A DNA stretch of 64,000 nt, from positions 1 to 64,000 of the forward strand of contig JASBRP010000044.1 of NCBI GenBank assembly GCA_030149365.1. Reading direction: 5' to 3'. Both the position numbers and the translations under genes were made by a program. Shown piece after piece: positions 12,590-59,951 of the stretch. The notes below the pieces were generated by a model. That model did no database searches, was not told the DNA's origin, and was given only the letters and a program-made list of their open reading frames with translations. Numbering within the stretch: the first letter of the stretch is position 1; each line of letters opens with the position of its first letter. The DNA comes from Solimonas sp. (GTDB lineage: Bacteria; Pseudomonadota; Gammaproteobacteria; Nevskiales; Nevskiaceae).

Positions 12590-14554
12590 ATGCTCCGTCT
12601 CCCTGCATTCCTTCTGTGCTTATTCCTGAGCGGCACCGTCTCGGCCCAGACCGCCAACGAGGTGCTGCGCGTCGAGTTCCGCTCGGCCCTGAAGACCGTC
12701 GAGGGTGGCGGCGAGGCTGCCGAAAGCCCCGGCCTGCGCAACTACATCCTGTACCCCTACCTGCAGGCCGCGCGCCTGCGCCAGGCACTCAAGACCCGCC
12801 CCGGCGAGGCGCTGGACGCCGAGATCGCCGGCTGGCTGCGCGCCAATTCCGCGCTGCCGGCCGCCCGCGCGCTGCAGCGTGACTGGCTGGGCAACCTGGC
12901 CCAGCGCCAGCAGTGGACCACCCTGCTGGCCAACAGCGAGCCCACCGCGTCCGACGATGCGCTGCGCTGCCACCGCTACAGCGCCTGGCTGCAGACCGGC
13001 GGCATCGAGGACAGCCTGCGCGACGAGATCCTCGGTGTCTGGATGACCGGGCAGCAGCTGCCGCAGGCCTGCGTGCCGCCGTTCCAGTGGCTGCAGCAGC
13101 GTGGCGCGCTGACGCCGGAGCGCCTGGAGCAGCGTGCCCGCCTGGCCCTGGAGGCCGGCAATACCGATCTGGCCGAGTGGCTGCTGCGGGGCGTGCCCGC
13201 CGAGCGCGCAGCACCCCTCAAGCACTGGTCGCGCCTGCTGCGCGAGCCGCGCCCGGCCATCGAGGCGCTGATCGCCTCGCCAGAAGCCAAGGTCGAATGG
13301 GCGCCGCTGGAAGCGGCCTGGGCCAAGCTGGCGCGCGGCAAGCCCGACGAGATCGCCCCGCTGCTACCGAAGATGATCGAGCGCCGCCGCATCGACGCCC
13401 GCCAGATTGCGGAGCTGCGCCGCGACCTCGCCATGGGCTACGCGCTGGATCGCCGTCCGGAAGCCCTCTCGCTCTACAAGCTGGTGCCGGACGACGTGCT
13501 GGACGACAAGGGTCACGAGTGGCGCGTGCGCGCGGCGCTGTGGCAGAGCCAATGGGAGCTGGCCGCGCAGTGGCTGCACGCCATGCCCCCGGCGCAGTCG
13601 GCCGAGCCGCGCTGGGCCTACTGGCGCGCGCGCACGCTCGAGTACATGGGCCGCCGTGCCCAGGCCGAGCCGATGTTTGCCGTGCTGATGCAGGAGAACG
13701 GCTACTACGGCGTGCTCGCCGCCTGGCGCCTGCAGAAGAAGCTGGTGCCGCAGTCGCAGAAGCTGGTGGAGGACACGGGTATCCAGCAGCAGCTGATGGC
13801 CAAGCCCGAGATGCAGCGCGCCCGCGAGCTGTACCTGATCGAGCGCACCGACCTGGCCAACCCCGAGTGGCGCCTGGCGCTGCAGGGCGCGGACGAGCTG
13901 ACGCGGGTGCAGGCCGCGCGCCTGGCCTCCGCCTGGGGCTGGCACATCCAGTCGGTGGGCATGCTCAACCAGATGAACCTGACGAAAGACCTGACGCTGC
14001 TGTATCCGCAGGCCTTCACCAAGGAGATCGAGGCAGGCGCCAAGTTCGCCGGCATCCCGGGGCCGTGGATCTACGGCGTCATGCGCCAGGAGAGCCTGTT
14101 CCTGCCCACGGCCGTGTCGCGCTCGCAGGCCCTGGGCTTGCTGCAGTTGCTGATGCCGACCGCGCAGCAGGTGGCGCGCAAGTGGAAGCAGCCGGCACCC
14201 ACGCGCGAGTCGCTGTTCGACCCCGCCATCAACGTGCCGCTGGGCGCCGCCTACCTGCGTGACCAGACCGACCGTTTCGGCGGCCGCTTCATCCTGACCC
14301 TGGGTGCCTACAACGCCGGCCCCAACGCGGTGGCGCGCTGGCTGCCCAGCGAGTTCAAGGACGCCGACGTCTGGATCGAGAACGTGCCCTACAACGAGAC
14401 GCGCGGCTACATCCAGAAGATCATCTGGCACATCACCGCCGACGCCTGGCTGAGCACCGGCCAGCCGCAGGACGCCAGCAACCTGCTGCTGCCAGTGTCC
14501 GCGCCGCCGCCCGCCGCGGCGGCCTGCCTGAAGGGCAGCCCGGGCTGCGTGTGA
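12590..14554 (+). CDS. slt: Soluble lytic murein transglycosylase, Slt70 type
   Basis: A 654-residue periplasmic enzyme. Signal peptide MLRLPAFLLCLFLSGTVSA, then a long helical U-domain (residues 30-450), and a C-terminal SLT domain with catalytic Glu in WIYGVMRQESLFLP, then SQALGLLQLLMPTA and LTLGAYNAGPNAVARW. It cleaves peptidoglycan to 1,6-anhydromuropeptides, the substrate stream handled by AmpD and AnmK, both also in this window. A TACAAT -10-like sequence at 12550-12555 makes the ATG at 12590 more likely than 12554. The stop overlaps a GTG (GTGA) that opens a duplicated copy of the cca start. Confidence 0.93.
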   Translation: MLRLPAFLLCLFLSGTVSAQTANEVLRVEFRSALKTVEGGGEAAESPGLRNYILYPYLQAARLRQALKTRPGEALDAEIAGWLRANSALPAARALQRDWLGNLAQRQQWTTLLANSEPTASDDALRCHRYSAWLQTGGIEDSLRDEILGVWMTGQQLPQACVPPFQWLQQRGALTPERLEQRARLALEAGNTDLAEWLLRGVPAERAAPLKHWSRLLREPRPAIEALIASPEAKVEWAPLEAAWAKLARGKPDEIAPLLPKMIERRRIDARQIAELRRDLAMGYALDRRPEALSLYKLVPDDVLDDKGHEWRVRAALWQSQWELAAQWLHAMPPAQSAEPRWAYWRARTLEYMGRRAQAEPMFAVLMQENGYYGVLAAWRLQKKLVPQSQKLVEDTGIQQQLMAKPEMQRARELYLIERTDLANPEWRLALQGADELTRVQAARLASAWGWHIQSVGMLNQMNLTKDLTLLYPQAFTKEIEAGAKFAGIPGPWIYGVMRQESLFLPTAVSRSQALGLLQLLMPTAQQVARKWKQPAPTRESLFDPAINVPLGAAYLRDQTDRFGGRFILTLGAYNAGPNAVARWLPSEFKDADVWIENVPYNETRGYIQKIIWHITADAWLSTGQPQDASNLLLPVSAPPPAAAACLKGSPGCV

Positions 14555-14573
14555 AGCGCTATCTGGTTGGTGG
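14551..14573. repeat. 23-bp direct repeat, left copy (duplicated cca start)
   Basis: GTGAAGCGCTATCT plus GTTGGTGG, matching 14685-14707 at 22 of 23 positions. It marks a 134-bp insertion or duplication between slt and cca. Confidence 0.85.
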
Positions 14574-14688
14574 GCGAGGCGGAAAAAGCAAAAAGTCCGG
14601 TGGACCTTTTGCCCGCCGAGCGCCAGGCCACGGATGGCCTGGCCGGGCTGCCGCGCCATGGACGGCTGTCCTGCGAGGTGTGGAGTGA
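14551..14688 (+). CDS. 45-codon mini-ORF produced by an insertion at the slt/cca junction
   Basis: GTG at 14551 overlaps the slt stop by 4 nt, and its TGA overlaps the GTG of cca by 4 nt. The first eight codons (VKRYLVGG) are a copy of the cca N-terminus; the rest is Gly/Arg/Pro-rich repeat translation. It is probably not a functional protein, but reading through it would keep ribosomes coupled from slt to cca. Confidence 0.4.
   Translation: MKRYLVGGRGGKSKKSGGPFARRAPGHGWPGRAAAPWTAVLRGVE
14595..14671. repeat. GCC-ATGGAY-GGC hairpin repeat, copy A (right half only)
   Basis: Contains a perfect 8-bp stem GCCAGGCC / GGCCTGGC closing the loop ACGGAT and a second hairpin CGCC-ATGGAC-GGC. Both correspond to the right-hand part of the copies near 46.6 and 59.8 kb, with a different first stem but the same loop type. 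It sits inside the 134-bp insertion. Confidence 0.55.
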
Positions 14689-14707
14689 AGCGCTATCTCG
14701 TTGGTGG
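14685..14707. repeat. 23-bp direct repeat, right copy (native cca start)
   Basis: Pairs with 14551-14573 (one mismatch). Confidence 0.85.
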
Positions 14708-46600: not shown

Positions 46601-46731
46601 CCCGCTTGCGGGTGATACGCCGCGCTTTGGCGATGACTAAATGTCATCGCCTGCGGCGGATCACGGGCGGCCATGGATGGCCGCCCTGGGGCTCAATCGA
46701 GTGGCTGCAGTCTCGCCATGGACGGCGCCCC
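46601..46731. repeat. GCC-ATGGAY-GGC hairpin repeat, copy B (full length)
   Basis: A nested stem-loop (outer CGCCGC/GCGGCG, inner GGCGATGAC / GTCATCGCC closed by TAAAT), then GGGCGGCC-ATGGAT-GGCCGCCC, 27 bases, and CGCC-ATGGAC-GGCG. The layout matches copy C base for base in spacing, with paired substitutions that keep the stems. It lies between convergent gpsA and trmL. Confidence 0.8.
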
Positions 46732-55963: not shown

Positions 55964-56029
55964 GAGATATATCCCCCGCTGCATCCCCGCAGCGTCAGAA
56001 CCACAAACCGGCAAGGCGCCGGAGCCTGC

Positions 56030-56195
56030 TTGAGGCCGGTCTCCGGACTCGAGGCTTGCTGGACCGGCGCCTTCCCATGCCTGTGGCACAGTGGCGTGTA
56101 GCCGGTCCCGAACCTCTTACCGTTGCGGGGGCAGTGAGCGCTTTGCACGCTCTTCCCGTTTAACCCAGGGGCATCGCCCTCTGGGAACCTGAAGC
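56030..56195 (-). ncRNA. Cobalamin riboswitch controlling btuB
   Basis: Minus-strand leader with the conserved B12 core CTGCCCCCGCAACGGTAAG (near 56118-56136) and the 3' element GTCCGGAGACCGGCC (56034-56048), plus flanking paired elements (GGTTCCCAGAGGGC...). This is the classic B12-binding aptamer that represses btuB when adenosylcobalamin is high. Downstream CCGGC-loop-GCCGG (56007-56021) may be the expression platform before the ribosome site. Confidence 0.95.
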
Positions 56196-56272
56196 GGGGC
56201 GAATTATACGCAGGCAGGGCCTGAACCCGTATCATGCGCGCGGATTAGAGCCTCCCTGGACAAGTTTCCCCG

Positions 56273-59297: not shown

Positions 59298-59786
59298 ATG
59301 CGCGGTGATCCCAAGGTTATCGATTTCCTCAACCAGGCCCTGCGCAACGAGCTGACGGCCATCAACCAGTACTTCCTCCACGCCCGCATGCTGGGCAACT
59401 GGGGCATGAAGAAGCTCGAGAAGGTCGAGTACCACGAGTCGATCGACGAGATGAAGCATGCCGATCGCCTCATCAAGCGCGTCCTGTTCCTGGACGGCCT
59501 GCCCAACCTGCAGGACCTGGGCAAGCTCTACATCGGCGAGGACGTGAAGGAGCTGCTGGAGTGCGACCTGCGCCTGGAACTGGAGGCCGTGCCCCTGCTC
59601 AAGGACGCCATCGCCTACTGCGAGCAGGTCCGCGACTACAACAGCCGCGAGCTGTTCGAGGACATCCTCGACAGCGAGGAGCACCACATCGACTTCATCG
59701 AGGAGCAGCTGGGCCTGATCGAGCGCATGGGCATTCAGAACTACATCCAGTCGGTGGCAGGTGCGCCGGCGGAAGAGGGCGAATAG
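59298..59786 (+). CDS. bfr: Bacterioferritin
   Basis: A 162-residue heme ferritin: [36 protein letters not shown], ferroxidase ligands [16 protein letters not shown] with Met in the heme-binding position (about 52), [44 protein letters not shown]. It forms 24-mers that oxidise and store iron. CAGGAGC lies before the ATG at 59298. The track ORF from 59064 begins inside bfd. A hairpin repeat follows directly after the stop. Confidence 0.97.
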
Positions 59787-59898
59787 CCGCGCTTTGGCGA
59801 TGCCTAAATGGCATCGCCCGCGGCTGTTCGCGGGCGGCCATGGATGGCCGCCCAGTGGGTAGCTGGGCGAGCAGAAGTCCCGCCATGGATGGCGCCCC
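59784..59898. repeat. GCC-ATGGAY-GGC hairpin repeat, copy C (full length)
   Basis: The first stem begins in the bfr stop: AGCCGC / GCGGCT outer, GGCGATGCC / GGCATCGCC inner with loop TAAAT; then GGGCGGCC-ATGGAT-GGCCGCCC, 27 bases, and CGCC-ATGGAT-GGCG. Paired changes relative to copy B (GAC/GTC to GCC/GGC; C-G to A-T in the outer stem) keep both stems. Confidence 0.8.
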
Positions 59899-59920: not shown

Positions 59921-59951
59921 GAAAAAGCCCCGCCGGAAGCGGGGCTTTTTC
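59921..59951. terminator. Rho-independent terminator after bfr repeat
   Basis: 13-bp perfect stem GAAAAAGCCCCGC / GCGGGGCTTTTTC with a 5-base loop. Confidence 0.92.

Follow-up and report, generated by a model that had tools for sequence, protein, structure and literature searches.

A dispersed hairpin repeat of Solimonas and other Gammaproteobacteria, probably a small mobile element that carries paired CsrA/RsmA-type loops

Three copies of one hairpin arrangement (A, B and C) lie in the window analysed here, a stretch of 64,000 nucleotides from a Solimonas draft genome, and they raise the question of whether such a family is a functional RNA or a mobile hairpin. The original prediction named these as the two possibilities. 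Hairpin pairs of this type occur three times in the window and not once in 60 first-order shuffles, and the folding z-scores of the RNA are -3.9 for copy B, -5.6 for copy C and -3.2 for copy A. Each copy consists of a long hairpin (hairpin 1) followed by two loop hairpins (hp1 and hp2), which are located as follows.

14551..14573, + strand: upstream copy of the direct duplication at copy A, the start of cca up to GG
14574..14684, + strand: copy A, the whole 111-bp insertion, including an 18-nt tail after hp2
14622..14643, + strand: copy A hp1, hexaloop ACGGAT
14655..14666, + strand: copy A hp2, hexaloop ATGGAC
14685..14707, + strand: downstream copy of the direct duplication at copy A, the start of the intact cca gene
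46612..46727, + strand: copy B, whole element through hp2, in the 3' region of gpsA; left end GTGATACG after GCGG
46629..46651, + strand: copy B hairpin 1, inner stem and loop TAAAT
46665..46686, + strand: copy B hp1, 8-bp stem, hexaloop ATGGAT, CsrA-type
46714..46727, + strand: copy B hp2, hexaloop ATGGAC, CsrA-type
59779..59894, + strand: copy C, whole element through hp2; left end GCGAATAG after GG
59796..59818, + strand: copy C hairpin 1, inner stem and loop TAAAT
59832..59853, + strand: copy C hp1, hexaloop ATGGAT
59881..59894, + strand: copy C hp2, hexaloop ATGGAT
59922..59950, no strand assigned: terminator-like palindrome 3' of copy C, read by eye (a scan gave the - strand only)

The order first described for copies B and C holds: a nested hairpin, GGGCGGCC-ATGGAT-GGCCGCCC, exactly 27 bases, and CGCC-ATGGAY-GGCG. 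The stem change between them (GAC/GTC versus GCC/GGC) is real. Copy A had been taken for the right half only, which is wrong; it has all three hairpins, namely hairpin 1 (GGCGG..CAAAAAGTCC-GGT-GGACCTTTTG..CCGCC), then GCCAGGCC-ACGGAT-GGCCTGGC, a shorter linker and GCC-ATGGAC-GGC. The TAG stop codon of bfr (59784-59786) falls within copy C, and the palindrome downstream, in our reading by eye, would put this copy within the bfr 3' UTR. An intrinsic terminator was looked for at copy B and none was found. The window also contains a cobalamin riboswitch (56017-56207, - strand; Rfam RF00174, 119.5 bits).

A covariance-model search had been proposed as a check on the family, and it revealed many further copies in the Solimonas genome (4.83 Mb) and its relatives. 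With a model of both loop hairpins and their linker, whose E-values are rough, 52 places in this genome (the seeds included) reach E<=0.01, and 36 of these score above 58 bits; congeners have 37 to 68 copies each by the same search. The element was detected in 48 of 58 genomes at the level of the family and, with strict filters, in 24 of 276 genomes of an even draw across the class, representing 20 families. Its spread across the class is patchy, and the copies in all these counts are not independent by descent. No element match was found in the plasmids and phages searched; the hairpin pattern did match viral contigs, but at ordinary hairpins that lack the element. We discounted the matches in Rhizobium, Mesorhizobium, Nonomuraea, Synergistaceae and Rhodobacter as chance or unrelated hairpins; the one in Rhodobacter has the loop AGCAAT and lies in a genome without a CsrA match. 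No description of such an element was found in the literature searched, which was mainly openly accessible.

The element is about 110-120 bases long and has the same order in many genera: a target GG, the left end G(T/C)GAG, the long hairpin (in many cases bulged on its 5' side), frequently GAAC, then hp1 (8 bp and a hexaloop ANGGAU), a poorly conserved linker and hp2 (3-4 bp and a hexaloop ANGGAY). The tails after hp2, compared by eye, have no common sequence. In all 68 copies measured, the loop starts are 43-46 nt apart within a searched range of 38-49. Anchoring 112 copies on GGGTGA and GAAC, we found that the pairs of hairpin 1 at offsets 1-6 are 78-90% Watson-Crick; when the partners were re-dealt 1000 times, the means were 29-50% and the highest value was 62%. 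The covarying pairs draw on GC, CG, AT and TA. In a second alignment, changes on both sides were seen in 4 of 11 loop-hairpin pairs, a count reached by none of 500 shuffles; this test is weaker than the one on hairpin 1, because here the hp1 stem was largely fixed by the search pattern. In congener G048, the orthologue of copy C has exchanged GCC/GGC for GAC/GTC in hairpin 1, a double change that keeps the pairing, and its two loops differ solely at their second base. The TAAAT loop, once thought constant, varies across the family.

Comparison with congeners indicates that the element moves. Copy A breaks into the start of cca and is flanked by a 23-bp direct duplication with one mismatch in 23, and the same site in congener G050 has a single copy of the 23-bp stretch and no element. 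The site of copy C behind bfr is occupied in G048 and empty in G049 and G050. Thus, orthologous sites with and without the element, as expected of mobile DNA, are found at both cca and bfr. At the 3' end of gpsA the insertions differ between congeners; G050 has one or more decayed inverted copies there (L365), where the Solimonas genome has copy B. The upstream copy of the cca start opens a frame of 45 codons (14551-14688) that continues through the inserted element. Its TGA and the GTG at which cca begins overlap, and cca may be translationally coupled to this frame.

Direct duplication of the target is likewise present around the element, with a variable length. In 13 of 156 elements the alignment of the upstream with the downstream flank scores well above that of control pairs (99% of the controls score <=26, and one reached 43), and in 12 of these 13 the upstream copy ends exactly at the left junction after GG. 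Target duplications usually have a fixed length, whereas those of the element range from 19 to about 110 bp; some sit in tandem arrays, whose growth could also produce them. Among the duplicated stretches are tRNA-Phe and tRNA-Thr genes as far as the D-loop (the whole tRNA follows downstream), a glycine-riboswitch-like leader, and gene starts that we take, by eye, to be those of ruvA, mutL, a YaiI/DUF188 gene and an RNase G gene. Genes for tRNA-Phe, tRNA-Thr or tRNA-Arg directly follow the element at several loci of distant gammaproteobacteria (L312, L315, L316, L317, L319, L321, L322, L323, L325 and L330); at those inspected at the sequence level, the element is preceded by a tRNA 5' half duplicated as far as the D-loop, sometimes in tandem arrays. 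Some duplications start at a functional 5' boundary, such as tRNA nucleotide 1 (L317) or a start codon (copy A, L135 and L205), and in L133 and L318 the start is a few bases after a -10-like box. Such sharp starts follow a tail of about 18-60 bases that is unrelated to the flank of the other copy. Selection for restored genes could account for them, as could a route of insertion tied to RNA 5' ends. We know of no familiar transposition scheme that matches this style, in which insertion after GG is accompanied by a long, gene-sparing upstream duplication.

As for the mobilising enzyme, Y1_Tnp (RAYT-type) genes were not seen beside the copies and were not found in two carriers. A reverse transcriptase was rejected as the mobiliser, with none found in the Solimonas draft genome or in several carriers. 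The distribution of Y1_Tnp and RVT_1 does not follow that of the element.

The copies were predicted to be placed after genes, which is true of most of them, with some found in the leaders of genes or tRNAs. In four sets, with approximate gene calls from a home-made codon-usage gene caller, 45 copies are in convergent, 35 in sense codirectional, 10 in antisense codirectional and 8 in divergent contexts, and under looser criteria the codirectional copies of the Solimonas genome are 9 sense and 9 antisense. A strict rule of sense 3' UTRs was rejected, given that antisense and 5' copies occur. At gene 3' ends the element often provides the stop codon, its G-TGA being joined to the target GG. A count of copies relative to stops, also proposed at the outset, lists 66 sense copies near a stop codon; 26 of them use the TGA that follows GGG, and the others have an element-internal or upstream stop. 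Orientation by itself is no proof of an RNA role, because insertion at GG together with selection for intact genes can give much of the pattern, and GTAG REPs are similar.

The main argument for an RNA role is the loop code. We scanned public genomes with all six loop positions unconstrained (N), and among 84 gammaproteobacterial matches in the listed loci the hp1 loop has A at position 1 in 83, any base at position 2, G in 83, G in 82, A in 81 and mostly T at the end. The hp2 loop, picked by stem and distance only, reads A (68 of 70), N, G (69), G (69), A (68) and Y (65). All four bases occur at position 2, so the loop ATGGAY, earlier held to be constant, is indeed conserved but in the form ANGGAY. 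A high-affinity CsrA/RsmE site determined by NMR is a hexaloop ANGGAX directly on a stem (PMC4005645). Judged by sequence, the loop code of the element is that of this published CsrA/RsmA hexaloop, and ANGGAN is likewise set directly on the stem. In 462 kb of the Solimonas genome, ANGGAN is present in 15 of 86 intergenic hexaloop hairpins and in 0 of 301 coding ones (stems >=6). For dual-site binding by CsrA the optimal intersite distance is >18 nt (review, PMC7652899). csrA is present in all 29 tested carriers with >=90% completeness. This code, the insertion target and the duplications go beyond what was first noticed, and the alternatives of functional RNA and mobile hairpin hold together, in view of the many copies, the strong covariation of anchored pairs, the empty site and the direct duplications.

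We consider it likely that the family is a small mobile element, non-autonomous, and that it spreads two-site CsrA/RsmA-type hairpins into mRNA ends and leaders, although both the binding and a mobiliser acting in trans are inferred. Insertion would occur directly after GG, with duplication of about 19 to 110 bp ending at that GG. Thanks to the duplication, an insertion into the 5' part of a gene or tRNA would leave an intact version downstream. At gene 3' ends, the reading frame would be closed by the left end of the element or by an internal stop. The sense transcript would present a strong hairpin and then two ANGGAN hexaloop hairpins with loop starts about 45 nt apart. Sense copies are presumably transcribed as 3' UTRs or leaders, and one CsrA/RsmA dimer could bridge both loops, for which their spacing seems suitable. 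This could result in local control of the host transcript and, with tens of copies, in some titration of CsrA/RsmA, and movement would depend on an enzyme supplied in trans. Several points speak against this reading: codirectional copies in the Solimonas genome are split evenly between sense and antisense (though not in the larger set), antisense copies would not present GGA, the hp1 stem has 8 bp, whereas SELEX work favours short stems (reviewed in PMC7652899), and the searches revealed no mobilising gene.

The mobility and the GG target would also fit a purely DNA-level REP-like or MITE-like element, whose transposase would read the hairpins and loops as single-stranded DNA and whose likeness to CsrA sites would be incidental. 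Orientation is near-even in the Solimonas genome, as this would have it, and placement at 3' ends with supply of a stop codon is known from GTAG REPs too (PMC3733652). However, the constraint on the loops spares exactly position 2 and keeps A1, G3, G4 and A5, which is the CsrA/RsmA code, hairpin 1 diverges freely in sequence while its pairing is kept, and a Y1 transposase was not found beside the copies or in the two carriers, so that we regard an explanation at the DNA level as unlikely. It is very improbable, in our estimation, that strong stems at the stop codon do the main job, stabilising the 3' UTR or stalling ribosomes, with the loops of minor importance. The element does begin at or over the stop codon, hairpin 1 is strong, and REPs <=15 nt from a stop reduce translation (PMC12306157), but this leaves the conserved loop code and the fixed spacing of the two loops unexplained, as well as the copies in tRNA and gene leaders. 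The duplication starts near transcript 5' ends, the precise left end and the variable, non-homologous tail could also mark a new class of RNA-linked mobile elements whose paired CsrA/RsmA sites would write transcripts into the CsrA network while the copies buffer CsrA; we hold this to be decidedly unlikely.

Two other features rich in GGA loops were encountered. About 0.7-0.9 kb from the rsmA gene of the Solimonas genome, on the opposite strand, is an array of the same AUGGAU hairpins as in the element, together with other GGA hairpins (C4; L031, 2369-2600, - strand). It has AUGGAU and AGGAUU loops, ends in a strong terminator and is adjoined by tRNA genes; Rfam rsmX matches part of it with 26.9 bits, under the gathering score of 56, and we regard the array as a candidate RsmX/Y/Z-like sRNA of Solimonas. 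The other feature is a longer repeat, also dispersed, in which GGACAGGATGTCC and GGCCATGGATGGCC hairpins lie within an extended imperfect palindrome (L005, 1290-1735; also L001, L012, L013, L015, L018, L020, L022, L023 and L025), often at contig ends. It differs from the CsrA-type element, though it is GGA-loop-rich too.

The usual view is that a global RNA regulator such as CsrA acquires its targets by point mutation. If a small mobile element does spread paired CsrA-type hairpins, ready-made at stop codons and in tRNA and gene leaders, it would offer a direct route to rewire or titrate the network. The rewiring idea is testable, since natural copies number in the dozens and empty sister sites exist, and the insertion style could indicate an undescribed mobilising machinery.

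Bacterial MITEs such as Correia/NEMIS and ERIC are non-autonomous, about 100 bp long and form structured RNA when transcribed. Unlike these, the element has a GG target, a long variable duplication and regulator-type loops, and no terminal inverted repeats were seen in it. With REP and BIME sequences it shares short palindromic repeats near 3' ends and the supply of stop codons; GTAG REPs lie near 3' ends in convergent and unidirectional gaps and can supply the stop codon (PMC3733652). However, REP/RAYT systems have a GTAG or CGTC tag on a palindrome of 20-40 bp, whereas the element has the left end G(T/C)GAG and about 110 bp, and it differs from REP/BIME in being a longer composite with CsrA-type loops, long direct duplications and no adjacent RAYT. 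RAYT/REP membership was rejected because the tag and the adjacent enzyme are both absent. Rfam gave no match to the element at the gathering score (best RsmW, 15 bits versus 52), and identity with an Rfam family, including the Csr/Rsm clan CL00106, was rejected as below gathering. Another GGA-bearing RNA is RsmU (sRX061) of Xanthomonas campestris, from a related order, which derives from a 3' UTR, has GGA motifs, and binds and can sequester RsmA, although GGA changes did not abolish its overexpression phenotype (PMC7694677). As described there, RsmU is set apart as a single RNA kept only within Xanthomonas, whereas the element is a dispersed mobile repeat. The sRNAs RsmX, RsmY, RsmZ, RsmW, CsrB and CsrC (CL00106) resemble the element in having several GGA stem-loops with ANGGAN hexaloops for CsrA/RsmA; each of these is an sRNA gene of its own, present once or a few times, whereas the element is dispersed, mobile and sits beside other genes.
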